This document shows, piece after piece, positions 5,610 to 36,962 of a stretch of DNA of 64,000 nucleotides. The stretch is from positions 1,738,001 through 1,802,000 of the forward strand of contig NZ_JBBOUU010000001.1 of the NCBI RefSeq assembly GCF_038006205.1. The letters are read 5' to 3'. Under the pieces are notes generated by a model. The model was not told where the DNA came from, ran no database searches, and saw only the letters and a program-made list of their open reading frames with translations. Positions within the stretch are counted from its first letter, which is position 1. The number at the start of each line of letters is the position of its first letter. The DNA is from Solibacillus sp. FSL R7-0668. GTDB lineage: Bacteria; Bacillota; Bacilli; Bacillales_A; Planococcaceae. The position numbers and the translations under genes were made by a program.

Positions 5610-6983
5610 ATGGCAAAATTATGGGGCGGACGTTTCCAAAAGTCAGCAGAGGCATGGGTCGATGAATTCGGCGCATCGATCGGCTTTGACCAACAATTAG
5701 TATTAGAAGATATCGAAGGTTCAGTAGCACACGTGACAATGCTTGGTGCACAAAGCATTTTACCAGCAGAGGACGTTGCGAAAATTTTAGAAGGCTTAGC
5801 ACAATTAAAGGTGAAGGCTGAAGCTGGCGAGCTTGAATTTACAGTAGCCAATGAGGATATTCACTTAAACTTAGAAAAAATGTTAATCGATTTAATCGGA
5901 CCAGTTGGAGGTAAATTACATACAGGCCGTTCACGTAATGACCAAGTAGCAACAGATATGCATTTGTTCTTAAAAAAACGTGTGCCTGAAGTAGTCGGGT
6001 TAATCGAAAACTTCCAAAATACCATTATTACGCAAGCAGAGCAACATATTGAGACAATTGCACCAGGCTATACCCATTTACAGCGTGCGCAGCCAATTAG
6101 TTTTGCGCATCATTTAATGGTGTATTTCTGGCAATTACAGCGCGATAAAGAGCGTTTTAATGAGTCGATGAAGCGTGTGGATATTTTACCATTAGGTGCT
6201 GGGGCGATGGCTGGGACAACTTTCCCGATTGATCGTTTAAAATCAGCAGAGCTTCTTGGTTTTGCAGATGTCTATGCCAATTCAATGGACGCGGTAAGTG
6301 ACCGTGATTTTATCGTTGAATTTTTATCAAATTCGGCATTATTAATGACCCATTTATCTCGTTTTGCTGAGGAAATTATTCTTTGGTCTACAGATGAATT
6401 TAAATTTATCGAGCTGGACGATGCCTTTTCTACAGGTTCATCGATCATGCCACAAAAGAAAAATCCAGATATGGCCGAGTTAATTCGTGGGAAAGCAGGA
6501 CGTGCATTCGGTAATTTAGTAGGCTTACTAACGGTATTAAAAGGGACACCACTTACGTATAACAAAGACATGCAAGAAGATAAGGAAGGCATGTTTGATA
6601 CGATGGAAACCGTACTGGGCTCATTAAAAATCTTTGAAGGTATGGTGCGCACAATGACGATCAACAAACCTCGTCTGCATAGCGCGGTGCATTCAGACTT
6701 CTCAAATGCGACGGAATTAGCCGATTATCTAGCAACAAAAGGGATGCCATTCCGTGAAGCACATGAAGTAACAGGGAAGTTAGTATTTACATGTATTCAA
6801 CAGGGGATTTACTTATTAGATTTACCTTTAGAAGAAATGCAAAAAGAATCAGTACTTATTGAAGAAGACATCTATGCCGTTTTAGCACCAGAAGCTGCGG
6901 TTAGTCGTCGAAATTCTTTAGGTGGAACGGGCTTTGAGCAAGTGAAAATTCAAATTGAAAAAGCAAAAAGTTTATTAGTGTAA
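5610..6983 (+). CDS. argH: Argininosuccinate lyase
   Basis: This 457-residue member of the fumarase/aspartase superfamily splits argininosuccinate to arginine and fumarate, ending the pathway begun by the adjacent argG. It starts with the typical MAKLWGGRF. The superfamily signature [12 protein letters not shown], which carries the mobile catalytic serine loop, is present, as are SRNDQVATD and HTGRSRND-type active-site segments and TGYTHLQ-like [12 protein letters not shown]. The ATG at 5610 has AGGAGAG about eight bases upstream. The gene ends just before a terminator. Confidence 0.98.
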
Positions 6984-6990
6984 TGACCTG

Positions 6991-7024
6991 AGGTGTTCAA
7001 CGGCTTTGTTGAGCATCTTTTTTA
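6991..7024 (+). terminator. Intrinsic terminator after argH
   Basis: Stem AGGTGTTCAAC (6991-7001) / GTTGAGCATCT (7008-7018), six-base loop and a T run. It closes the argGH unit. Confidence 0.8.
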
Positions 7025-7085
7025 TTTTCCTATTTTTGGACTTAAGAGTATAATAGGAAAAAAATAATAGAAAGGTGTCCTTTTT

Positions 7086-8696
7086 ATGAAGAATGTAAAA
7101 TCGTCTCAATCGTGGGCAATTACATTATTCGCTATTGGTGTGTTTATGGCGGCACTGGATAACGGCATTATTAGTGCGGCTTTAACGACTATTAATAGCT
7201 CTTTTGGTGTATCTCCAAACTGGGGTGCATGGGGTGTCACGATTTATACGCTCGGTTTAGCAATCAGTGTACCAATTGTAGGGAAGCTATCGGACCGTTA
7301 TGGACGTAAAAAATTATTTATCGTTGAAATTGCTTTGTTTGGTATCGGCTCTCTATTAGTAGCACTGAGTCCGAATTTTACCTTTTATTTAATTGCTCGC
7401 TTCATTCAATCGATGGGCGGGGGTGGTATTTTTATCATCGGTACCTCTTATGTTGTCAGTACGTTACCTGCCGAAAAGCAAGGAAAGGCGCTTGGCATGC
7501 TTGGTGGAATGAACGGGATGGCCGCTGTGCTTGGACCAAATGTAGGGAGTCTGATATTGGATTTCACTGGTAGCTGGCATTGGTTATTTTTAATTAATGT
7601 GCCGATTGCCATTATCTTAGTCCTTTTAGGGATAACAAAATTACAAGAAACAACCGATCCAACACCAGGTCAGCTTGATATGACAGGAACGGTCCTTCTT
7701 TCAATCGCGATTTTAGGCATTATGTATGGCTTAACAAATATTGAGGGTGTGACCTTCTTTGAGTCACTTCTTGCAACGAATGTCTATCCGTTCATATTAA
7801 CAGGCTTAGCAATACTGGTTGGTCTTTACTTTTATGAAACGCGGTTGGAGCGAAACGGGGGAGACCCGATTTTACCCGTTTCATTAATGCGTCAGCCGAC
7901 GTATTTAATCACGCTAGTACTAGGCTTTTTATCTGGAGGTATGCTGACAGGGATGATCTTTATTCCAGCATTTACGGAGCAAGTTCTTGGCATATCCGCT
8001 ACGCACTCGGGTTATTGGATGACGCCACTTGCATTGGCTGCAGGAGTAGGGGCGGGTTTAGGCGGAGTGCTTGTTGATAAGCGTGGTCCAATTTTAGCGG
8101 TCGTTTTTGCAGGGTTAGTTGCGGGAATTGGTTTTTATTTATTCCCAGCTTGGGTCGAGGTAAAATGGCAATTCATCATTGCTTCAGTTGTTGCAGGAAT
8201 TGGGATGGGGGTACTTTTAGGGGCACCTTTGAATATTTTAGCAACAGAAAAACTACAGGAAAACAAAGGTACTGCCTTAGCATCGTTATCACTCATTCGA
8301 ACGATTGGGATGACATTAGCGCCAACGATTTATGCAGGATTCATTGCACGTGGTTTTATTGAATTACCGAGCCTATTTAAATCGGATTTCCCAACGATTT
8401 TACAAAATAATGTGCAAGCTGCGGAGTTATCCCAACAAGCAACTGTCGAACTTGCTGCGATTGGTCAGCAATTTGCAGCAGGTGGGGACTATTCACAGCA
8501 ACAAATGATGGAGGCTGTCCAAACGATTCAAGATCCTACATTAAAAGAAGTTGTGTTAATTTCAGTCAATGAAGTAACGCAATTAGCCGCACAAAATGGA
8601 TATAGTGGATTATTTACAACAGCTGCCCTAATTGGACTTTGTGTTTTAATCATTGGAATAATGTTAAAGCCAATTCGAAATAAAGAGTGGCAATAA
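7086..8696 (+). CDS. MFS transporter, DHA2 (EmrB/QacA-like) drug exporter family
   Basis: A 536-residue membrane protein with about 14 hydrophobic segments, the size and layout of DHA2 proton-drug antiporters. MFS motif A appears as GKLSDRYGRKK between helices 2 and 3. A motif-C-like glycine-rich helix is GGMNGMAAVLGPNVGSL, and the N-terminal AALDNGIISAAL matches the family's helix-1 acidic motif (D25). A roughly 90-residue extracytoplasmic loop (about 430-505) lies before the last helix, rich in Gln and Ala. The likely role is export of hydrophobic or cationic compounds; the substrate is unknown. No regulator is adjacent. Confidence 0.9.
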   Translation: MKNVKSSQSWAITLFAIGVFMAALDNGIISAALTTINSSFGVSPNWGAWGVTIYTLGLAISVPIVGKLSDRYGRKKLFIVEIALFGIGSLLVALSPNFTFYLIARFIQSMGGGGIFIIGTSYVVSTLPAEKQGKALGMLGGMNGMAAVLGPNVGSLILDFTGSWHWLFLINVPIAIILVLLGITKLQETTDPTPGQLDMTGTVLLSIAILGIMYGLTNIEGVTFFESLLATNVYPFILTGLAILVGLYFYETRLERNGGDPILPVSLMRQPTYLITLVLGFLSGGMLTGMIFIPAFTEQVLGISATHSGYWMTPLALAAGVGAGLGGVLVDKRGPILAVVFAGLVAGIGFYLFPAWVEVKWQFIIASVVAGIGMGVLLGAPLNILATEKLQENKGTALASLSLIRTIGMTLAPTIYAGFIARGFIELPSLFKSDFPTILQNNVQAAELSQQATVELAAIGQQFAAGGDYSQQQMMEAVQTIQDPTLKEVVLISVNEVTQLAAQNGYSGLFTTAALIGLCVLIIGIMLKPIRNKEWQ

Positions 8697-18154: not shown

Positions 18155-18412
18155 TTCAAGAGTACATGGAAGCGTTGATTGGAAGTAGTAAATGGTGTGT
18201 ATACCTTGAGAGAGCCAGTGGTTGGTGCAAACTGGTGGATACAACTATTGAACTCGTCCAGGAGCATACGACCTGAAATGCTAGTAGGGAAGTCGGGAGC
18301 CTACCGTTACAAGGGCCTTAAGTGGAGCGTCTCGACGTTCAATTAGAGTGGTACCGCGAGTTCAACCTCGTCTCTATTCGGAGAAATCCGTTTAGGGGCG
18401 GGGTTTTTTAGT
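18155..18412 (+). ncRNA. T-box leader (leucine, CTC specifier) controlling leuA
   Basis: The T-box sequence AGAGTGGTACCGCG is at 18345-18358; its TGGT bulge pairs with an uncharged tRNA ending ACCA, which fits tRNA-Leu. The specifier is read as CTC at 18253-18255 inside GAACTCG, in the same context (GAA-codon) as the proline leader in this window. Stem I elements (AGAGAGCCAGTGG and partner bases) precede it. The terminator arm is about 18363-18405, ending GGGGCGGGGTTTTTT. When leucyl-tRNA is charged, the terminator forms; uncharged tRNA-Leu stabilises the antiterminator and leuA is expressed. Confidence 0.92.
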
Positions 18413-25041: not shown

Positions 25042-26871
25042 ATGACAGAATCAGTATTATCACTAAATAATTCAAATGACACCCAAACAAATTTGCAACA
25101 ATTTATCGAACGCTTAAAGCCGCTCCACGTAATATTGTCGCAAAATACATATGTAAAAGATATGACCAATCGACTAAATCGCATTATTGAGGATGCAACT
25201 AGTCAGCCAATCATGTTAATTTTGGGAAAAGAGCGCGTCGGCAAAACAACATTAATTAATGGCCTATTAGGAAGAAGCCTATTAGAGGATAATAAAAACG
25301 AGCCAACATATGTCAATACGTTTATCAAATATGGTGAACAGGAGTGCATAAAAGCAATCTTTTTAGATGGTATGGTGGCCACTTTTGATATTTCGAAATT
25401 AAAGCTCCTAACGATTTCTAATAGTGAAAGTGCTCAAATTATTCGCGAGCATATTGATTATTTAGAAGTGTATATTAAACATGATTTATTAAAAGATGTG
25501 ACAATTATCGACTCTATTGGACTTGAAGTTGGGGCAAATAATACAGCATACTTTTCCCAAAGCTTATTGCAACGAGTGGATGAAGTATTCTTTGTGTTAA
25601 GAGCTGGTTCATCTGCTACAGATGATGAAGTGAACTTTATTAAAAAGCTCAATACACTAGGAATTACTGCTAATTTAGTCGTTAATGGGATTGATCAGCT
25701 CGATCATAAAGTAGAGCAGTTTATCCAAGAAGAAAAGAATGTCTATGGTGAACATATCGGACATGTTGTTGCGGTTTCGGCACTTCAAGCATTGCAAGGC
25801 CGTAAAACGAATAATAGCCAACTACTCATTGATTCGCGTATTACACAGCTTACCCAGTTAATTCAAGAGCTAGCGGATAATCAACAAAAGAAAACGCGCA
25901 ATGTTATGGAGCAATTTATGAATTGGCTGGAGCGTTTACGAAAAGAAGTCGAGCTCATTCCGCTCCGTGAGCCTTATGCTTCGGCTTTTGCCAATGTGGA
26001 GCAATATCATTCGGATTCAGATTTAGAATTTACACGTAAACAGCGTGACTTGGCATTGATTTCGGCGTACGAAGAGGAATATGCAAGTGTGAGCAAAGTA
26101 TTTAAAGATGTTCAAACGCTTTATCAATTACTGCAAAAATTAGCGAGTGATTTGTATTTACGTGATACCTTAGTAGAGAAATACGAGGAAATTGCCGTAC
26201 TTTATCAAAAAAATGTACGCGATTATCGCAAGCTGCATGTCGATTATACGATGGAATATGCTCGCTTTGAAAAGCAATATAAAAAGCAAACGAACCAAAA
26301 TTTAACCTTCCCACTTCCACAAGAAGAAGCACAGGGGATCATGTTAGATCGAATCCAATCATTGAATAAAATACAAGCTCAGCTAGCTGAAAAAGTCGAA
26401 CTAATTCGTAAATATGAGGAGTTCGTACTAAAAAATTTATACATCGTTCAAAATCGATTAAATGAGCTTGCAGAGAAACGTCTCGTTCAAATTCAAGGGC
26501 AGGTAAGCGACTTAAATATTCAGCGCAAACGTGAACGCAGTTATTTAAAATCCTATGCGAATAAATTAACAGAGTTTAACTGTATTGTAGAAGCACAGGG
26601 CTTTTTAATGGATGCCATCATGCCTTATTTACTAGAGCAGCAGCTACCAATTTCTGAACAGGAAAAAACGCATATTCAAAATACAATCGAATGTATTTGT
26701 GCCATTGATTTGACACATCAAGCATTGTATAAACGTTTAAATGTGACAGATGCAGATGATTTATTGACACAGATGGACTTTGAAGGGAAATTCAAATTAT
26801 TCGGACTGAGCTTAACGGAATCGGATATCCTATCTGAAATTCCTGAACTACCAAATTTACTAGAAGTATAA
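25042..26871 (+). CDS. Dynamin-like GTPase, stand-alone
   Basis: A 609-residue protein with an N-terminal dynamin-type GTPase domain. G1 is GKERVGKTT (62-70), G3 is DSIG (157-160) and G4 is NGID (215-218). A long helical region with several coiled-coil stretches (about 300-520) follows, like the stalk of bacterial dynamin-like proteins. G4 reads NGID rather than the usual [TN]KxD. No obvious hydrophobic paddle or transmembrane segment is seen. Bacterial relatives remodel or tether membranes, but this one's role is unknown. AAAGGAG supports the ATG at 25042. It is monocistronic, convergent with yfkAB and 3.5 kb from the RavA/ViaA-like locus. Confidence 0.82.
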   Translation: MTESVLSLNNSNDTQTNLQQFIERLKPLHVILSQNTYVKDMTNRLNRIIEDATSQPIMLILGKERVGKTTLINGLLGRSLLEDNKNEPTYVNTFIKYGEQECIKAIFLDGMVATFDISKLKLLTISNSESAQIIREHIDYLEVYIKHDLLKDVTIIDSIGLEVGANNTAYFSQSLLQRVDEVFFVLRAGSSATDDEVNFIKKLNTLGITANLVVNGIDQLDHKVEQFIQEEKNVYGEHIGHVVAVSALQALQGRKTNNSQLLIDSRITQLTQLIQELADNQQKKTRNVMEQFMNWLERLRKEVELIPLREPYASAFANVEQYHSDSDLEFTRKQRDLALISAYEEEYASVSKVFKDVQTLYQLLQKLASDLYLRDTLVEKYEEIAVLYQKNVRDYRKLHVDYTMEYARFEKQYKKQTNQNLTFPLPQEEAQGIMLDRIQSLNKIQAQLAEKVELIRKYEEFVLKNLYIVQNRLNELAEKRLVQIQGQVSDLNIQRKRERSYLKSYANKLTEFNCIVEAQGFLMDAIMPYLLEQQLPISEQEKTHIQNTIECICAIDLTHQALYKRLNVTDADDLLTQMDFEGKFKLFGLSLTESDILSEIPELPNLLEV

Positions 26872-26873
26872 AA

Positions 26874-26922
26874 AAAGAGCGGAATAGGTGCCAATTAGCC
26901 CTTGTTCCGCTCTTTATTTTTT
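26874..26922. terminator. Bidirectional terminator between the dynamin-like gene and yfkAB
   Basis: Eleven-bp stem AAAGAGCGGAA (26874-26884) / TTCCGCTCTTT (26905-26915), A-run on the left and ATTTTTT on the right. Confidence 0.85.
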
Positions 26923-26928
26923 GTATCT

Positions 26929-28059
26929 TTATTTAGATGTGACTCGAATCTCCTTCACCGAGCCACTAATAAACTGTTGGTCTTCGTAATACATGTTTTT
27001 AACTAAAACATTGGGTCCGAGACATTTTACAGCAGGGCAGTGACAGTTCAAGCTCTTGGCTAAATCGGTGTCCATCCATTTGTTAAAAATATCAGGGAGT
27101 GAGTCGGTGTTAATATTACCGAGCGCAGGTGTATCCCCGAAATCCGTAACAATAACATCACCTGTAAAGATATTGACGTTTAAGCGAGAACGACCATCGG
27201 GATCATTACGCATGGAGACGTTTTTTGCTGCTCGTAAGCGTGCTAATAATAGCTGATCTTCCTCAGATGGGCTACAAGGGTAAAATGGTAACGTCCCGAA
27301 CAGCATCCATGTATTTTCATCACGAATGTCAAGTAAATGGTGGATCGCCTCACGTGTTTCTGCTAATGAAAGCGATGTTAAGGCGCTTGCAAAATCAGAG
27401 GGATACATAGGGTGTACTTCGTGACGAGTACATTTCATTTCGTTAATAATTTGGTTGTGGATATGCTCTAAGTACGGCAATGTTTTTTTGTTTAGCATCG
27501 TTTCAGCAGAGACCATAACTCCGTTTTCTGCAAGCATGCGTGCGTTGTCAATCATGCGTTGGAATAGCGCGGCACGTTGGTCAAATGTTGGTTTTCGTTC
27601 CATCATCGCAAAGCCTGTTTCGACAAATTCCTCAATTGTGCCCCAGTTATGAGAAATATGGAGCACATCTAAATAAGGTGCGATTTCAAGATAACGTTCT
27701 CCGTCAATTGTTAAATTTGAGTTCATTTGCGTACGGACGCCGCGATCATGTGCGTATTTTAATAGGGGCAATACATATTCACGTACAGATTTGCGGCTCA
27801 TCATTGGTTCTCCACCAGTAATAGAAATTGTTGATAAATTGGGGATTTCATCTAACCGTTGTAAAATTAATTCGATTGGTAATGCCTCTGGGTCTTTTGT
27901 TTGTAATGTATAACCGACAGCGCAGTGAGCACAACGCATATTACATAATGTAGTCGTTGTAAATTCAATATTAGTTAATGTTAAGCCCCCATGTTTTTCG
28001 ACATCTAAGTAAGCTTCCCATGGATCGAAACTTGGCGTGATTTCTTTTAACATCGTCAT
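26929..28059 (-). CDS. yfkAB: Radical SAM / CxCxxxxC-motif protein YfkAB
   Basis: A 376-residue radical SAM enzyme. The cluster-binding CxxxCxxC motif reads CNMRCAHC (about residues 36-43) and SITGGEPM is the SAM-binding GGE motif. Near the C terminus CHCPAVKC supplies the CxCxxxxC motif that defines YfkAB, a possible second cluster site. The reaction is unknown. Starts at TTG 28068, ATG 28059 and ATG 28053 are in frame; AAAGGAAG lies three bases before the TTG and twelve before ATG 28059, so the choice is uncertain. It lies downstream of the beta-helix gene on the same strand, separated by that gene's terminator. Confidence 0.9.
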   Translation of the reverse strand: MTMLKEITPSFDPWEAYLDVEKHGGLTLTNIEFTTTTLCNMRCAHCAVGYTLQTKDPEALPIELILQRLDEIPNLSTISITGGEPMMSRKSVREYVLPLLKYAHDRGVRTQMNSNLTIDGERYLEIAPYLDVLHISHNWGTIEEFVETGFAMMERKPTFDQRAALFQRMIDNARMLAENGVMVSAETMLNKKTLPYLEHIHNQIINEMKCTRHEVHPMYPSDFASALTSLSLAETREAIHHLLDIRDENTWMLFGTLPFYPCSPSEEDQLLLARLRAAKNVSMRNDPDGRSRLNVNIFTGDVIVTDFGDTPALGNINTDSLPDIFNKWMDTDLAKSLNCHCPAVKCLGPNVLVKNMYYEDQQFISGSVKEIRVTSK

Positions 28060-28190
28060 TTTAATCAATTACTTCCTTTCTAACGATTTATTGTCTCATA
28101 AAATACGATGAAAGCAAATGTCTATCGCCTATTTTAATAGAAATTTCATTGGTGTGCACAGAGGAATGCGCATATCAAATCGCAAATTAA

Positions 28191-28220
28191 AAAGCCTACA
28201 AAGATTCGTAGGCTTTAACT
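28191..28220 (-). terminator. Terminator of the beta-helix gene
   Basis: Stem AAAGCCTAC (28191-28199) / GTAGGCTTT (28208-28216). On the minus strand it is followed by TTAATTTG. It separates the beta-helix gene from yfkAB. Confidence 0.75.
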
Positions 28221-28239
28221 CTTAATCCATTAAATCCGA

Positions 28240-30174
28240 TTAATTTAGCTCATCAAGTGTATGGGTAATGTGACTATTATTTTCGCTGTAAAAAATATTG
28301 CCAAGAGAATTTTCAATGGTCGTATGCACTAAGTCTATTTTCGAATGGTTTACCGCTTGTACATTAAAATGATATTTATCATTTTGAATAATGCAATGCT
28401 GGGCATGGAGTGTCGAGTTGTTTTGTACATAAATATCGGATTCATGCCCCTCTGTTAGCTGTGTGGCAGAAAGCTCGACAGCAGAATCTAAATCAATCCA
28501 AATCTGAGGGTACAGATGATTGGAAATAAAGGAATCTTGAATAAAGGCCTCGGCATGGTTTTCGATAATAAAGCCGTTCTTTTCGCCATGCAATAATTCA
28601 CTGTTTTTGAATATGACGGAGCTATCATTGACGATAATTTGTGGTAGTTTATGGGTCGTTATCTGACTTTCGGTTATATGCATCGTGGCATTCTTCATTA
28701 CTTTAATGCCGTTACTATCACCACCACTAATGCGTGATTTCACAATAGATGCCTTCGTTTGTCCGACAATTTCCACTTGGACACCCGTACCATCTTTAAT
28801 CGTAGTCTCTGAAATATCCAATTCACAGCTATCCACCATAAAAATCCCTTTGCCTCCGAATAATTCGCTCTGTGTAATCGACACATTGGCATGGTCCTTA
28901 CCCGCAATATGGGGCATTTCATTATTGTCGAACTTGCAGCCTTCAATTGTCGTAGTCGCACCGTTGACCGTTAATATGCCATTTCCTTTATTTTGCTGAA
29001 TGACAGAATCCAAAACAAACATCTCCGCATTGATGACGGTTATGGCAGTATTTTCCTGATTCCTAATCGTGCTCGTCACGACGGAGCAGGAAGAATTTTT
29101 CTCTACAAAAATCCCGACCTGCTTGCCTTCTTTAATGGTTATGTCTTTCAGTGTACAGATCGACTGCTCGGATATAAATAATTGCGGTAATGCATTAGCC
29201 GCGAATATTGACTCATTAAAGTTAGCAATCGATTTATCTTTTAATTGTACGCCGACGCCTTGACAGCTGTATATTTGGCAATCGGTCATATTGAGCAGCG
29301 ACTCCAAGGTGAGCTGTACATTTGCAATTTTATGAAAGGCAAAGGATGTATTCGTTATCGTTGCTTCTGAACATTCACGCAGCATGATACCCGATTCATT
29401 GCCATATTCAATTCGACTGTTTAGTAAATGAAGCTGACTACTCTGGATCCATAGCTGCGGTAATGCATGATGCTGAATGACGGTATTTTGTATTCGAATT
29501 TTTGATTGCTCTGCTGCATATATACCATTACCTTCACCATGCTCAAGTCCACATCCCTGCATATGAAGAGTAGAGGAAGCTTGAATAATCAGTTGTGTGC
29601 CTGTATGATGATGCATTTTGACATGATTTAATGTTGCGATGGATGTATTTTTTAACCAAAGGGCATGCTCGGCTTTTAAGAGCTCGCAGTTCGTTAATTC
29701 AATTGAAGATTGATCCATGAGTATATGTGTCTTTTCGTTGCTTTCGAAATAGCAATTGCTCATGGTTGCCGAACTTTTATTTAGCAATGCGACTGCTACA
29801 TCCTTCGCCCCGATAAATTTGCATTTTTCTGCATGTGCTTTCCCACCGTTTAATGATAATAATACAGTGGACATAGAGCCATTTAGCACGCAATTGGTGA
29901 GTGTAATGGTACCTTCGACGTAGATTTGTGTCGTCGGGTGAAGGGTAATATTTTCTAAAGTTAAATGTGTAGCTTTAGGAACAATGACAATCCCTTCTAT
30001 GACAACATGCTCTGCAACCTTTGCGGTAATCATTACATCTTGTTGTATTGAAATGGATTCCCTGTATTTACCGGCAGCCACTAAGATTTCATCGCCGTAA
30101 TTCGCTTTTTGTACGGCGCGTTCGACTGTTTTAATCAAAGAAAAAACAGAGGTAGACACTTTAATTATCGCCAT
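28240..30174 (-). CDS. Right-handed parallel beta-helix repeat protein, probably cytoplasmic
   Basis: A 644-residue protein made almost entirely of pectate-lyase-like beta-helix coils of about 23 residues. From about residue 235 a 46-residue double coil recurs, marked by LPQLWIQSS, NVQLTLES, LPQLFISEQS, MPHIAGKDH, LPQIIVNDSS and YPQIWIDLDS. The N terminus (VERAVQKANYGDEILVAAGKYRE) is the usual cap. There is no signal peptide, SLH motif or membrane helix, so it should stay in the cytoplasm, unusual for this fold in Firmicutes. No catalytic acid cluster is apparent; a scaffold role is possible. GGGAGGGG precedes the ATG. It is divergent from the RavA-like ATPase. Confidence 0.88.
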   Translation of the reverse strand: MAIIKVSTSVFSLIKTVERAVQKANYGDEILVAAGKYRESISIQQDVMITAKVAEHVVIEGIVIVPKATHLTLENITLHPTTQIYVEGTITLTNCVLNGSMSTVLLSLNGGKAHAEKCKFIGAKDVAVALLNKSSATMSNCYFESNEKTHILMDQSSIELTNCELLKAEHALWLKNTSIATLNHVKMHHHTGTQLIIQASSTLHMQGCGLEHGEGNGIYAAEQSKIRIQNTVIQHHALPQLWIQSSQLHLLNSRIEYGNESGIMLRECSEATITNTSFAFHKIANVQLTLESLLNMTDCQIYSCQGVGVQLKDKSIANFNESIFAANALPQLFISEQSICTLKDITIKEGKQVGIFVEKNSSCSVVTSTIRNQENTAITVINAEMFVLDSVIQQNKGNGILTVNGATTTIEGCKFDNNEMPHIAGKDHANVSITQSELFGGKGIFMVDSCELDISETTIKDGTGVQVEIVGQTKASIVKSRISGGDSNGIKVMKNATMHITESQITTHKLPQIIVNDSSVIFKNSELLHGEKNGFIIENHAEAFIQDSFISNHLYPQIWIDLDSAVELSATQLTEGHESDIYVQNNSTLHAQHCIIQNDKYHFNVQAVNHSKIDLVHTTIENSLGNIFYSENNSHITHTLDELN

Positions 30175-30295
30175 AGAACCCCTCCCTAAACATGCTATAT
30201 GTTATATGTTCACGGAAAATGCATAAGTTAATCATAAATATTATATTTTCCACTAAAAACATCATACAAAAGTTATGTAAAGTGAATGACCTCAT

Positions 30296-30321
30296 GATTT
30301 ATACAAATTGATTAGGGGTAT
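30296..30321 (+). promoter_or_regulatory. Possible SigB-type promoter upstream of the RavA-like gene
   Basis: GATTTA (30296-30301), 14 bases, GGGTAT (30316-30321). The -10 matches the SigB consensus GGGTAT fully, the -35 (GTTTAA) four of six. About 110 bases before the start at 30435. Low confidence. Confidence 0.25.
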
Positions 30322-30434
30322 AGTTACCTGTAAAAGGTTTAAAAACTATGTACGACATGTATCACATTAGTAATAAAGTAATTGTATTCATTTACGGAAT
30401 CGAATAAGAAGTTGATTGAAAGGAATGTGCAAAA

Positions 30435-31553
30435 TTGGCTAAGCAATTACAAATGATTCAACAAAGATTAAATGAGTATTTTTATGACCGTGAAGAGGAG
30501 GTTGAAGCGTTACTGACCGCCTTACTTTCAAAACAACATTTACTATTTATTGGACCTGCTGGAACAGGGAAGAGCATACTGTCATCCATGCTTGGCGAGA
30601 TTGTCGAGGAAAGTCATTATTTTCAGCATTTACTGACCCCATTCAGTACGCCTGAAGAATTATTTGGTGTTCTGTCGCTAAAGGATTTAGAGCAAGGAGT
30701 ATATAAGCGTAATGTTTCGAACATGCTCCCAGAAGCCCATTTCGCATTTGTCGATGAGATTTTCAAAGCCAATTCAGCTATTTTAAATTCTTTATTAACG
30801 TTAATTAATGAGCGTATTTTTTATAATAACGGCGTGCCCGTGCCCTCACCATTGATGACAATTGTCGGCTCTTCAAATGAGTATATTGAAGAGGGGGAAG
30901 GGCTAGAAGCGTTATTTGATCGCTTTTTACTACGCTACGAAGTGAATTATATCCGTGAGGCAGATTCCTTTATTGCCATGTTAAAGGACCAAAATCCGAT
31001 CGTAATACCAAAAATGACGATGCAGGAGCTATGTGCACATCAAGAGCAGGTTGCTAACGTTACAATATCCGATACGATTTATCAAGCAATCGCGAAAGTT
31101 CGGCAAGCATTACATGATGCGGCCATTCGTCCATCTGACCGACGCTTCAAGCAATCGCTATCCATTTTACGAGCAAAGGCTTATTTAGCGGGCCGTTCCC
31201 ACGTAATACGCTCTGATTTGGCTATTATGGGCAATATTTTGTGGGAAACGATTGATCAAAAAAATGCGACACAGGAAATTATAAATGAAACGGTATTTGA
31301 TACAGTCGAAGCCTTTATCCATCGAACAACGACCGAATTCGAAACGCTATTAATGACAGCACAAAACACGATGCAAAATAAAACAGCGCTTGCTCGTACG
31401 CAACTGAGTCATTTACTAATGCAAGGAAAAACTTTATACATGGAAGTGGAAAATATGAACCGGCAAATTCCCAATCGCCCGGAGCTTCAGCATTTAAAGG
31501 TGGACATGCATAAGCGCTTATTACAAATGACATCAGATGTGATCGGTTTTTAG
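30435..31553 (+). CDS. MoxR-family AAA+ ATPase, RavA-like
   Basis: A 372-residue AAA+ protein. Walker A is GPAGTGKS (40-47), Walker B FVDEIF (D107-E108), sensor 1 is GSSNEY, and the arginine-finger region is EALFDRFLLRY. Segments LLTPFSTPEELFG, KANSAILNSLLTLINERIF and DRRFKQSLSILRA closely follow E. coli RavA. A long helical C-terminal tail (about 285-372) replaces the RavA LARA domain. MoxR ATPases act as chaperones with vWA partners, here the next gene. The start is TTG 30435 with AAAGGAATG six bases upstream. Confidence 0.9.
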   Translation: MAKQLQMIQQRLNEYFYDREEEVEALLTALLSKQHLLFIGPAGTGKSILSSMLGEIVEESHYFQHLLTPFSTPEELFGVLSLKDLEQGVYKRNVSNMLPEAHFAFVDEIFKANSAILNSLLTLINERIFYNNGVPVPSPLMTIVGSSNEYIEEGEGLEALFDRFLLRYEVNYIREADSFIAMLKDQNPIVIPKMTMQELCAHQEQVANVTISDTIYQAIAKVRQALHDAAIRPSDRRFKQSLSILRAKAYLAGRSHVIRSDLAIMGNILWETIDQKNATQEIINETVFDTVEAFIHRTTTEFETLLMTAQNTMQNKTALARTQLSHLLMQGKTLYMEVENMNRQIPNRPELQHLKVDMHKRLLQMTSDVIGF

Positions 31554-31592
31554 TTGGTTGTACTTTATTTTTTATAGTAGGTGGGGAATTAT

Positions 31593-33086
31593 ATGGATGA
31601 AAATATAGTTGTCTTGTATAGCCGATCACTTTTCGATATAAGCCATTTGCAAAAAGCGCGCTTTAATGAGCTAGTAAAAATGGCCAAGCTTTTGGCGGAT
31701 AGCTGCATGGAAGGCGAAAAAATACTGACCGGCTTCACAAATTATATCGGGGATACATGGTATGCATTTTTTAGCAAAGACCCGACACTTTTGAAAACAG
31801 CACAGCAAATAGATGAAAGCCAATATGATTTTATTTCGAACTTGTTGAAGCAAGATGAATATCTTCAATGGCAGCAGCTAACAAAAGGGGACGAGCTGCT
31901 AAGTGTGCTGACCGCAATCAGTATGGCAGATCAATTACTAAAGGCAATAAAAGACACTCAGAACATGAATCTAAGTGCGCATAATCAAAGGTTGGTGGAG
32001 CGTAAGCATACATTTGCTAAAAAGCGTATTGAAGAGTTGGAGCAAAAAATAAAGGAGTCTACAACAGACATTATGAAGGATGCCTACCGACGCCAAAAGC
32101 ATCTTTATGAAGAACGCATAAAAACGGTCGATCAAGAAATGTTGACCTCACAGCAACAAGTGAAGCAACGACTGAAGCGCATTAGTGAACAGTCTATCGG
32201 AACAATCATTCACCAAAATAAGAAAAAAATTCACCATACAAAGAAGTTAATTAGGGCAATTGGAACGATGGACGGCAAAAAGTTCGAATACGTCCCACTA
32301 TGTGATCAATTTGATCTAGCTGAAAAATTACGCGCCAGCAAGGAATTACAGCGAATAGCCGACTTGGTGGGGCGCTTTAAGCGAATCGCGATGAAAAAAC
32401 AAAAAGAAAAACAGATACAAACGATGGAACGGAAAAATATCTCCATTGGACAAGAAGTTTCGAGATTATTGCCAACAGAGCTTGCTAACTATGTGATGGC
32501 GCCTAGCAAGCTGGATTTTATGCGCCGTTTCAGTGAATCGCAAACACTTGTCTATGATCCGGTGGGGAAGAATCAAAAGGGAAAAGGACCAATGATTATT
32601 TGCATGGATGAAAGTAGCTCTATGACCTCGATTAAAGAGCAAAGTAAGGCATTTTGTATCGCGCTCCTGACCATTGCCAAGAAGCAAAAGCGTGATTTAG
32701 CGATTATTCCCTTTGCTAGCACAGTCGGGGAGATTCAAATCTTTCGGAAAGGACAAGCAACGACACGGGATTTAATGGCATTTAGCCAGCGCTTTTTAGG
32801 GGGTGGCACAAATTATGAGCAGCCGTTACGCGAATCATTAAACATCCTTTTGCAAAGTGAATTTAAGGAAGCAGATATCCTTTTCGTAACAGATGGCTCG
32901 AGTTTTTTATCGACACGCTTTATTGATGAGTTCAATGCGACGAAAAAGAAAAAACAATTTGAATGCACAGCAATCCTTTTAACCAACTTATTTAATGCGG
33001 TGAATGTGAACGTGGTCAATAAGTTTGCGGATCGTGTAATGGAGGTAAATGAATTATTCGAAGCAACTGATGCATTCGTTTTATAG
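31593..33086 (+). CDS. VWA-domain protein, ViaA-like partner of the MoxR ATPase
   Basis: A 497-residue protein. The N-terminal 300 residues are helical and charged, with strong coiled-coil potential (about 145-215). The C-terminal von Willebrand A domain (about 330-497) has an intact metal-binding MIDAS: DESSS (339-343), the threonine in GGGTNYEQPL and the aspartate in FVTDGSS. This is the layout of E. coli ViaA, which works with RavA. It starts 39 bases after the ATPase stop, in one operon. ATG 31593 follows TAGGTGGGG. Target or client is unknown; membrane or respiratory complexes are known for RavA-ViaA in enterobacteria. Confidence 0.88.
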   Translation: MDENIVVLYSRSLFDISHLQKARFNELVKMAKLLADSCMEGEKILTGFTNYIGDTWYAFFSKDPTLLKTAQQIDESQYDFISNLLKQDEYLQWQQLTKGDELLSVLTAISMADQLLKAIKDTQNMNLSAHNQRLVERKHTFAKKRIEELEQKIKESTTDIMKDAYRRQKHLYEERIKTVDQEMLTSQQQVKQRLKRISEQSIGTIIHQNKKKIHHTKKLIRAIGTMDGKKFEYVPLCDQFDLAEKLRASKELQRIADLVGRFKRIAMKKQKEKQIQTMERKNISIGQEVSRLLPTELANYVMAPSKLDFMRRFSESQTLVYDPVGKNQKGKGPMIICMDESSSMTSIKEQSKAFCIALLTIAKKQKRDLAIIPFASTVGEIQIFRKGQATTRDLMAFSQRFLGGGTNYEQPLRESLNILLQSEFKEADILFVTDGSSFLSTRFIDEFNATKKKKQFECTAILLTNLFNAVNVNVVNKFADRVMEVNELFEATDAFVL

Positions 33087-33162
33087 GGAGCAGGATTCTT
33101 TCTAGTCAAACCGCCTATTGTCTCTTACAATGAAGGAGGTAAAAGATTTAGGGGGAATTATT

Positions 33163-33999
33163 TTGAACACAGAGACATATCATCAAATTTTTGCGCTGAC
33201 ACAAGAAGAGCGTAAACAGTATATAGAAGAAAATCCATTGGTAGTCCAGCACATATTGCAAACAGTTGGGCAGGAGCAAGCTGAATTAAGAGATCAGTTG
33301 AACTATCGTTTATTTATTCAATTATTATCAGAAAATAGCTTATCGAAACCGATGATCCATGACTTTGTTGACGAACTTACTTCAATTAAAGGGTTAGTTT
33401 TTAATATTGGGGAAAAACATACGAACAGTGTATTTTTACGTTCGTATGCCGCGCTATTTTTAGCAGCGATTGTCAACGCAGACCGACAGCTACAGTATTT
33501 AACGGACGAGCAATTGGAAAGCTTAACACAAAATACGATTGCTCTTTTGGCAAAGGAGCAGGATTTACGCAGCTTTGTTAGTGCGGAGCAGGGATGGGCC
33601 CATAGCATTGCCAATTGCAGTGAATTAATGTGCGCAATTATTCAGCATCCAAAATTTCAAATTCGCTATACGGCACAAATTTTACAAGCGATTCGTGCAA
33701 ACATTTGGAAGGGCTATGTTTTCCAAGATGATGAAGAAGAACGTTTCTGCAATATGATTGAAGCGTTACTTGCAAAGGGAATTGATGAAGAACTATTTAT
33801 TGAGTGGACGGAGCAACTGTTTGATTACTTGCAGATGGTTGCCTATGAGCAAGGTTATGACGCCATTTGGTTTAAAGCACGTACCAATCAATTAAACATC
33901 GCTAAAACACTATACTTTTATTTGAAATTTGCAAATCGACATGACAAATTACGCGGAATTGTATCCATCTTTATTCAGCGCTGGATTAAATTAAATTAG
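33163..33999 (+). CDS. DUF2785 family protein
   Basis: A 278-residue helical cytoplasmic protein with the DUF2785 signature around GWAHSIANCSELMCAIIQHP and the FLRSYAALFLAAIVNAD segment; HEAT-like helical pairs are likely. Function is unknown. The frame begins at 33118, but TTG 33163 preceded by AGGGGG at about eight bases is the best-supported start; an ATG at 33130 has no ribosome site. It lies 76 bases downstream of the ViaA-like gene with no clear terminator between, so it may be the third gene of that operon. Confidence 0.78.
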   Translation: MNTETYHQIFALTQEERKQYIEENPLVVQHILQTVGQEQAELRDQLNYRLFIQLLSENSLSKPMIHDFVDELTSIKGLVFNIGEKHTNSVFLRSYAALFLAAIVNADRQLQYLTDEQLESLTQNTIALLAKEQDLRSFVSAEQGWAHSIANCSELMCAIIQHPKFQIRYTAQILQAIRANIWKGYVFQDDEEERFCNMIEALLAKGIDEELFIEWTEQLFDYLQMVAYEQGYDAIWFKARTNQLNIAKTLYFYLKFANRHDKLRGIVSIFIQRWIKLN

Positions 34000-34140
34000 C
34001 TTTTATCCGTTTGAAGGTGAAATTCGAGCTGCAAATGTTTTTGTGAAATATTAAATGGATGAATTGCCAATTAAAAATTCCGCTAAATACGCATAAATTC
34101 TAAATATTATTGTAGAATAAATGTGTATTTCCGATATGTC

Positions 34141-34155
34141 ATAAATAAAACTTAT
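34141..34155. promoter_or_regulatory. CcpC-type dyad (ATAA-N7-TTAT) upstream of acnA
   Basis: ATAAATAAAACTTAT is an exact ATAA-N7-TTAT element. Its centre is about 66 bases before the predicted transcript start (near 34214), the position of the CcpC box I at B. subtilis citB. A further ATAA half-site lies at 34190-34193, near -24. A citrate-responsive CcpC repressor is inferred. Confidence 0.6.
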
Positions 34156-34178
34156 CGTAAAGGATAATAATAATGCAA

Positions 34179-34207
34179 TTTACTTATGTATAAAACTAAG
34201 CTATTAT
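34179..34207 (+). promoter_or_regulatory. SigA-type promoter of acnA
   Basis: TTTACT (34179-34184), 17 bases, TATTAT (34202-34207). Confidence 0.55.
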
Positions 34208-34268
34208 AAGTGGTGGAGAAAAGAGCATTACAACCTTTTCAATTATGAAATTCTAGGGGGAACACACA

Positions 34269-36962
34269 ATGGCAAACTTACACAACAGCCGCGCTTCATT
34301 TGAAGTAAATGGTAAGTCTTATGGCTACTACCGTTTAGCTGCTATTGAAGAAGCTGGTATCGCAAACGTATCACGCCTACCTTACTCAATTAAAGTATTA
34401 TTAGAATCAGTATTACGTCAATATGACAACTATGTAATTAAAGAAGAGCATGTAAACGAATTAGCAAAATTCGGTTCACACGACAAAGAAGCAGAAGTTC
34501 CATTCAAGCCTTCACGTGTAGTATTACAAGACTTCACTGGTGTACCAGTAGTAGTTGACTTAGCTTCATTACGTTCTGCAATGAAAGAAATGGGTGGAGA
34601 CCCAGCTAAAATCAATCCTGCTATTCCAGTTGACCTTGTAATTGACCACTCAGTACAAGTTGACAAATACGGTAACGCAGCAGCATTACAAGCGAACATG
34701 GATTTAGAGTTCGAGCGTAACGCTGAACGTTATAACTTCTTAAAATGGGCTCAAACTGCTTATGATAACTTCCGCGCTGTACCACCAGCAACTGGTATCG
34801 TACACCAAGTTAACTTAGAGTATTTAGCTCCAATCGTTCATGTAAACGAAACAGAAGACGGTTTAGTAGCATTCCCTGACTCAGTAGTAGGTACTGACTC
34901 TCACACAACAATGATCAACGGTATCGGTGTTCTAGGTTGGGGTGTAGGTGGTATCGAAGCTGAAGCTGGTATGTTAGGTCAACCATCTTACTTCCCAATT
35001 CCTGATGTTATCGGTGTTAAATTAGTAGGCGAATTACCAAACGGTACAACTGCTACTGACTTAGCATTAAAAGTAACACAAGTATTACGTCAACGCGGCG
35101 TAGTAAACAAATTCGTAGAGTTCTTCGGTCCTGGTGTTGTTAAATTACCATTAGCTGACCGTGCTACAATCTCAAACATGGCTCCAGAATACGGTGCTAC
35201 TTGTGGTTTCTTCGCAGTTGACGAAGAATCATTAAACTACATGCGCTTAACTGGCCGTGACGAAGAGCACATCGCTGTTGTTGAAGCTTACTTAAAAGCA
35301 AACGACATGTTCTTCAACCCGGACTTAGAGCCTGTTTACACTGACGTTTTAGAAATTAACTTAGCAGAAATCGAAGCTAACCTTTCTGGTCCTAAGCGTC
35401 CACAAGATTTAATTCCTTTAACTGAAATGAAAAAAGTTTACCGCGAGTCAGTAGTAGCTCCTCAAGGTACACAAGGTTTCGGTTTAACAGAAGAAGAATT
35501 TTCAAAAACATCAACTGCTAACTTTGCAGACGGTGCTGTTGAAATTCCAGCAGGTGCTGTAGCAATTGCTGCGATCACTTCTTGTACAAATACATCTAAC
35601 CCATACGTATTATTAGCTGCTGGTTTAGTTGCTAAAAAAGCGGTTGAGTTAGGAATCAAACCTGCTAAGTGGGTTAAAACTTCTTTAGCACCAGGTTCTA
35701 AAGTAGTAACTGGTTACTTAGAAGAGTCAGGATTACAAGAGTACTTCGACGCAATCGGTTTCAACACTGTAGGTTACGGTTGTACAACATGTATCGGTAA
35801 CTCAGGTCCGTTATTACCAGAAATCGAAGAAGCAATCAAATCAAACGATTTATTCGTAACTTCTGTATTATCAGGTAACCGTAACTTCGAAGGTCGTGTA
35901 CACCCATTAGTAAAAGCGAACTTCTTAGCATCACCACCATTAGTAGTGGCTTATGCTTTAGCTGGTACTGTAGATATCGACTTACAAAAAGACGCTATCG
36001 CTGTAACTCCAGAAGGTAAAGAAGTATTCTTTGCTGATATCTGGCCATCAACTGAAGAAGTTAATGCTGTATTAAATAAAGTTGTAACTCGTGAATTATT
36101 CCAAAAAGAATACGAAACAGTATTCACTGCGAACGAAGCTTGGAATGCAATCGAAACTTCAACTGAAAACTTATATACTTTCGATGACAAATCAACTTAC
36201 ATCCAAAACCCACCATTCTTCACTGGTTTATCTAAAGAGCCAGGTGCGATCCAAACTTTAGAAGGTATGCGTGTAATGGCTAAGTTCGGTGACTCTATCA
36301 CAACTGACCATATCTCTCCTGCAGGGGCAATCGGTAAAGATACACCAGCTGGTAAGTACTTAATCGAAAACGGCGTAGCTATCCGTGACTTCAACTCTTA
36401 CGGCTCTCGTCGTGGTAACCACGAAGTAATGATGCGTGGTACATTCGCGAACATCCGTATCCGTAACCAAATCGCTCCAGGTACAGAAGGTGGTTTCACT
36501 ACTTACTGGCCAACAGGCGAAGTTGAGTACATTTACGATGCATGCATGAAGTACCAAGAAGCAGGCACTGGCTTAGTAGTATTAGCTGGTAACGACTACG
36601 GTATGGGTTCATCTCGTGACTGGGCTGCTAAAGGTACATTCTTATTAGGCGTTAAAACAGTAATCGCACAATCTTATGAGCGTATCCACCGTTCTAACTT
36701 AGTAATGATGGGCGTATTACCATTACAATTCATGGCTGGTGAATCAGCTGATACTTTAGGATTAAAAGGTGACGAAACAATTTCTGTTAACTTAACAGAT
36801 GATGTTAAACCACGTGACATCTTAACTGTTACTGCAACTTCTCCAGAAGGTAAAGTAACTGAGTTCAAAGCATTAGCTCGTTTCGATTCAGAAGTAGAAG
36901 TAGACTACTACCGTCATGGTGGTATCTTACAAATGGTATTACGTGCGAAAGCTGCACAATAA
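34269..36962 (+). CDS. acnA: Aconitate hydratase
   Basis: An 897-residue TCA-cycle aconitase of the AcnA/IRP type, isomerising citrate to isocitrate. The [4Fe-4S] ligands are in SCTNTSNP and [11 protein letters not shown]. Other signatures are [56 protein letters not shown] and [16 protein letters not shown]. Bacillus aconitase also acts as an RNA-binding regulator when it lacks its cluster, which may apply here. Codon use is strongly biased (for example TTA, GTA, AAC), as in highly expressed genes. AGGGGG is seven bases before the ATG. The promoter shows a CcpC-type layout. Confidence 0.98.

Follow-up and report, generated by a model that had tools for sequence, protein, structure and literature searches.

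Pairs of a MoxR-type AAA+ ATPase and a vWA protein act on varied targets (PMC9489729, PMC7159879). In the NorQ-NorD pair, the proposed mechanism is that one NorD monomer plugs the NorQ hexamer and uses its MIDAS for the target (PMC9976466). Kaur et al. proposed that the vWA protein captures a peptide, which is released in an ATP-driven step, and that MoxR-vWA ternary systems are conflict systems; a GXXXTAKS P-loop is often present in the ternary systems that have a beta-propeller (PMC7159879). The N-terminal domains of the EccA-type AAA clade, including the beta-helix of EccA, might recruit substrate (preprint PMC10659427). The portions of the open-licence literature that were covered gave no description of a beta-helix protein with a MoxR-vWA pair, and the words beta-helix, beta-solenoid, and beta-helical have 0 occurrences in the main text of PMC7159879.

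Such a combination is present in Solibacillus sp. FSL R7-0668, in a window of 64,000 nucleotides. The minus strand carries the gene of a 644-aa right-handed beta-helix protein, here called BHX (28240..30174; Beta_helix 7e-53). Divergent from it, the plus strand carries genes for a 372-aa MoxR-type AAA+ ATPase (30435..31553; bpMoxR 1.6e-48, AAA_5, AAA_lid_8), a 501-aa vWA protein with a MIDAS motif (31581..33086; VWA_2 1.2e-7), and a 293-aa DUF2785 protein, predicted by AlphaFold2 to be an alpha-solenoid (33118..33999; DUF2785 9.7e-44). The gaps of 27 bp between MoxR and vWA and 31 bp between vWA and DUF2785, on one strand, are as expected of an operon. Compared with one Solibacillus relative (locus L031), dN/dS is 0.09 for BHX, 0.065 for MoxR, 0.149 for vWA, and 0.088 for DUF2785, and all four genes are intact and under purifying selection. 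The dN/dS range of 0.065-0.149, together with recurrence in relatives, shows that the arrangement is more than chance; the four-gene locus is real, conserved, and modular. The divergent block of beta-helix, MoxR, intact vWA, and DUF2785 genes named in the first-pass annotation is borne out by the open reading frames, the Pfam matches, and the recurrence. The dynamin-like GTPase gene that it had placed 3.5 kb upstream (25042..26871, plus strand; Dynamin_N 6.6e-10) ends 3.56 kb ahead of the ATPase gene; its distance from BHX is 1.37 kb, and the radical-SAM gene yfkAB (26929..28068, minus strand; TIGR04478 631 bits, cut-off 250) lies in between. Elsewhere in the window, a T-box leader at 18166-18378 (RF00230, 146 bits) is the only Rfam match.

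The ATPase and the adjacent vWA protein form a MoxR-vWA pair, with Walker motifs in the one and a MIDAS in the other. The Walker and related motifs of MoxR are invariant in 11 aligned rows, and the MIDAS residues D343, S345, S347, T410, and D438 are invariant in 12 aligned rows of the vWA protein, whose vWA domain comprises residues 338-439 of 501. No beta-propeller was matched by Pfam in the vWA protein, and a PDB sequence search with its profile gave no match. In locus L032 (genome G114, 6043-7609) the vWA gene lies in two frames, by sequencing error or decay. The MoxR core aligns to RavA residues 9-296 (PDB match, E 7e-58), the protein ends at 372 aa, and its last 87 aa have only Pfam matches below cut-offs. 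The C-terminal substrate domain of RavA is of the LARA type. The ATPase was rejected as RavA, as NF010054 gives 196.6 bits against an equivalog cut-off of 681 and the recognised RavA C-terminal domain is missing. ViaA was rejected at 74.1 bits against the cut-off of 500 for NF008230 (vWA match E 1.3e-20). The pair had been called RavA/ViaA-like, but it does not resemble RavA/ViaA in particular: both scores fall below the equivalog cut-offs, and the relatives are DUF6744-MoxR-vWA sets, several of them on a phage or plasmids.

BHX is modelled as beta-helix coils (AlphaFold2 mean pLDDT 94.0, pTM 0.87), and no signal peptide was seen by eye. Its only Pfam matches are Beta_helix and NosD, and no AAA domain is present in the same polypeptide. 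Conservation is highest in the C-terminal coils (about 505-640), in loci with and without MoxR. Across 43 rows, the invariant residues are chiefly G, N, and Q, plus a few H, S, A, C, and K, and no BHX residue tracked with the presence of MoxR at the thresholds used. A polysaccharide lyase or epimerase was rejected, given these invariant residues and Foldseek matches to beta-helix proteins of many kinds (best match E 2.7e-8, query TM 0.34). NosD was also rejected; the NCBIfam NosD score is 17.2 against 300 bits, and the Pfam NosD match of 4.5e-14, above its cut-off, is taken as shared repeats. A PDB sequence search found one phage tail protein (1.8e-5). BHX has no match in phage records and matches four Streptomyces plasmids, of which the one examined encodes a beta-helix-AAA fusion. 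Relatives longer than 1000 aa contain two AAA matches and AAA_lid_6 behind the beta-helix in 5/5 scanned, and more such long frames exist. These tandem fusions (L159, L162, L163, L164, L205) come from Bacilli and one Streptomyces plasmid. Caryophanon has two paralogues, each about 700 aa long, that consist of beta-helix only, as does a 519-aa Lysinibacillus protein; an AAA domain is absent from all three.

Among 261 genomes of the order, BHX (above 690 bits) occurs in 52, in one of them cut off by a contig end, and the MoxR clade that goes with it (scores over 590 bits) comprises 26 genes in 25 genomes. In all 25, one copy is divergent from BHX at 152-763 bp, taking the longest open reading frames as starts, and a vWA gene lies behind it. 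The 26th gene is a second copy in genome G259 (contig 28, L156), beside DUF6744 and near an actin-like gene, away from BHX. The proposed co-localisation is therefore found in every genome with this MoxR clade, the extra copy of G259 standing apart. The clade is present in 25/52 BHX genomes and 0/209 others, and both BHX and this MoxR are present in 16/16 same-genus genomes listed. The other 27 BHX genomes lack the clade, and the stretches L055-L058 also lack DUF2785, which indicates an independent role for BHX. Across the wider class, 10/398 genomes, one of them outside the family, have a BHX-like match (E up to 1e-25). Stretches of up to about 9 kb per side, some ending at contig ends, were read around 43 BHX loci; MoxR-vWA is missing from 18 of these. 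Most of the 43 are flanked by yfkAB and acnA, and this shared synteny accounts for part of the BHX-MoxR linkage by inheritance. Two Caryophanon genomes have BHX, MoxR, and vWA together, with neither yfkAB nor acnA in the stretches read. MoxR-less Ureibacillus genomes are interleaved with three MoxR-bearing genomes of the Ureibacillus clade (L054, L157, L158); the MoxR of these three needs three changes on the BHX tree, which fits several losses, or loss and regain.

DUF2785 lies within 4 kb of BHX in 37/43 loci; in both Caryophanon genomes the distance is about 9 kb. Its model (mean pLDDT 90.6) is nearly all helical, and a fold search matched only helical-repeat proteins, at E of 0.001 or higher. 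On the DUF2785 tree, the linked rows require two changes, which does not demonstrate one origin for them. In six listed loci without BHX, DUF2785 occurs in other contexts, and acnA is absent. For DUF2785, the open-licence papers covered include one genome report. Of the proposal that BHX and DUF2785 are new partners of the pair, the conserved BHX-MoxR-vWA unit and the usual linkage of DUF2785 stand, but both proteins also occur without MoxR-vWA. Ureibacillus genomes encode, between DUF2785 and acnA, a protein some 185 aa long (e.g. L051 11976-12545) that appears by eye to be membrane-anchored and has no Pfam match. The dynamin-like gene is a facultative neighbour: it stands no more than 5 kb from BHX in 20/43 loci, fewer than half, including loci without MoxR-vWA, and is not near it in 23/43. 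PADLOC matches the dynamin-like protein to mad8 (1.8e-4) and YfkAB to viperin models (1.6e-11), both distant.

A degenerate SigB-like element, GTTTAA-N14-ATGTAT, lies upstream of MoxR (30337..30362, plus strand). The sigB operon of the same genome, named from gene content, has GTTTAA-N13-GGGTAA before its rsbV-like gene. The exact element GTTTAA-N14-GTGWAW was seen by eye in 12 of 19 BHX-MoxR intergenic regions, drawn from the 25 genomes; among the 19 regions it is not in L031, L032, L046, L052, L053, or L054, and it has 0 matches in the window and none in the two nearest relatives. The SigB-like promoter that had been suggested before the ATPase gene thus finds a counterpart in relatives, but its copy in the window is degenerate. 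Scans of 26800-34400 gave 21 promoter sites against a shuffle mean of 26.0 and four terminator sites against 5.8, neither above shuffles; one terminator-like hairpin (28191..28216, minus strand) lies 3' of BHX and belongs to this class. The strict sigma-70 pattern had no match in the locus. Before DUF2785, 15 regions aimed at MoxR-less loci, three of them MoxR-bearing, gave one SigB-like match (L058). SigB control of the MoxR genes is possible from these motifs and weakly supported; the locus may be under stress control.

Related pairs have another third partner, DUF6744. In the MoxR tree, a branch (79/93; 63/41 in a wider tree) has the BHX-linked rows on one side. The wider tree joins them with the DUF6744-linked L156 in a group with 98/100 support, beside DUF6744-linked and partnerless rows; support for a BHX-linked group without L156 is modest. 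Ten genomes outside the family have related MoxR genes, 11 in total, at 408-471 bits against the profile, and DUF6744 lies upstream in 8/8 loci examined from other families of the class, three of them cut off by a stretch end. DUF6744 was also found in one phage and eight plasmid records. In the four records read (Moorella phage MTATph1, two Brevibacillus plasmids, and one Alicyclobacillus plasmid) the order is DUF6744, ATPase, and a third gene, which is annotated VWA in the three plasmids and hypothetical in the phage. One DUF6744 query, run against 45 BHX stretches, matched none of them. Of 21 stretches around the order's other MoxR-vWA pairs, DUF6744 occurs in three, a 375-aa protein in five, and none of the tested partners in 13; BHX, DUF2785, and the dynamin gene occur in 0/21. 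The 375-aa protein precedes MoxR-vWA in 5/5 loci read of one genus (L079, L080, L081, L085, L086) and is a candidate for a further lineage-specific third partner; its L080 copy has no Pfam match, and in L085 it lies in two frames. The source genome has a second, distant MoxR-vWA pair (L069 8350-11290; C2:30358-33250); its contig is 126 kb long, an AAA_21 ATPase gene is close by, and none of the third partners tested was found in that stretch. The P-loop reads GTGKS in all BHX-linked MoxR rows and in L069, L070, and L156, whereas 13 sister rows have TAKS. An earlier third partner of MoxR-vWA appears to have been replaced by BHX. A tentative history, to which we give somewhat less than an even chance, is that the chromosome of an ancestor of Solibacillus and related bacteria captured MoxR-vWA from mobile DUF6744 sets and exchanged the third partner for cytosolic BHX; the product would now be a vertically inherited, beta-helix-directed remodelling chaperone, the separate-subunit counterpart of the beta-helix-AAA+ fusions.

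The preferred reading, with a probability of about 0.5, is that these genes specify a dedicated system for ATP-driven remodelling, with the beta-helix as its object or its means. MoxR, as an ATPase that should assemble into a hexamer, would drive the vWA partner, which would hold the target via its metal site. Cytosolic BHX would be the third component in contact with the pair, either as a platform that brings the target or as the client that is assembled or released, and the alpha-solenoid DUF2785 protein would be an accessory. By analogy with the beta-helix N-terminal domains of AAA+ proteins, BHX may present the target to MoxR-vWA. A role as client fits equally, because BHX occurs without this MoxR, but the chromosomal MoxR beside BHX never occurs without BHX. 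The remodelling reading is weakened by the divergence of the genes, which are not one operon, and by the 13/21 sister stretches without a tested third partner. The neighbourhood might instead reflect inheritance only, with a captured MoxR-vWA pair sitting between BHX and DUF2785 in a conserved region of the chromosome and directed at different targets. RavA-ViaA, for comparison, acts on respiratory complexes and the membrane, and is characterised by binding to lysine decarboxylase, respiratory complexes, or lipids. Inheritance alone is rather unlikely; the yfkAB-acnA flanks, the 27/52 BHX genomes without this MoxR, and the varied targets of such pairs (PMC9489729, PMC7159879) agree with it, but a copy lies beside BHX in 25/25 genomes with this MoxR, the linkage is kept in Caryophanon with yfkAB and acnA not nearby, and DUF6744 matches 0/45 BHX stretches.

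An anti-phage conflict system, with BHX as sensor or containment scaffold, is improbable. The bpMoxR match, the related pairs on phage and plasmids, and PHROG matches of MoxR (2.2e-82) and vWA (1.6e-50) are in line with it, but PADLOC has no match for the three core proteins BHX, MoxR, and vWA, so that a defence system was rejected, and reaches only E 0.022 for DUF2785. Unlike a patchy defence gene, BHX and MoxR are kept throughout the 16 same-genus genomes listed; no effector domain was found by Pfam, and the genes are under purifying selection. BHX could also be structural, with MoxR-vWA helping to assemble a layer of the envelope, spore, or cytoskeleton, perhaps together with the dynamin-like GTPase. 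The long, regular beta-helix and the dynamin gene near 20/43 loci, MoxR-less ones included, would suit such a layer. However, Caryophanon is not known to form spores and has BHX and MoxR-vWA, 23/43 loci have no dynamin gene nearby, and BHX has no export signal visible by eye; the chance of this structural reading is slight.

If the remodelling reading is true, the range of third partners described for MoxR-vWA machines gains a beta-helix, and a third partner exchanged in evolution would make it possible to study how the target of a MoxR chaperone is determined, with an intact, conserved chromosomal system as the means. Compared with described systems, the DUF6744-MoxR-vWA sets of Bacilli, phage, and plasmids have related MoxR genes and carry DUF6744 beside the pair, whereas the BHX locus has a divergent beta-helix third protein and DUF2785; no open-licence paper naming DUF6744 was found. 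RavA-ViaA resembles it in the MoxR core alignment and the ViaA model match, and differs in that the ATPase here is shorter, the partner is a beta-helix, and the scores are below cut-off. NorQ-NorD likewise has a MoxR hexamer and a vWA partner with a MIDAS needed for the target, and differs in having a known enzyme as its target (PMC9976466). The beta-helix-AAA+ fusions, assigned to the EccA/SpoVK clade by analogy with PMC10659427, are distant BHX homologues, and L159 has an N-terminal cap that, by eye, is similar to BHX. In contrast, they are one polypeptide with AAA and AAA_lid_6, while the BHX locus has separate proteins and a MoxR. The beta-propeller ternary systems (Kaur et al. 2020, PMC7159879) share the bpMoxR profile match and the three-part logic, but here the propeller and the TAKS P-loop are absent, and a beta-helix is the third part. 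The BHX locus is thus a variant of the MoxR-vWA ternary systems with a beta-helix partner, which would serve in ATP-driven remodelling.
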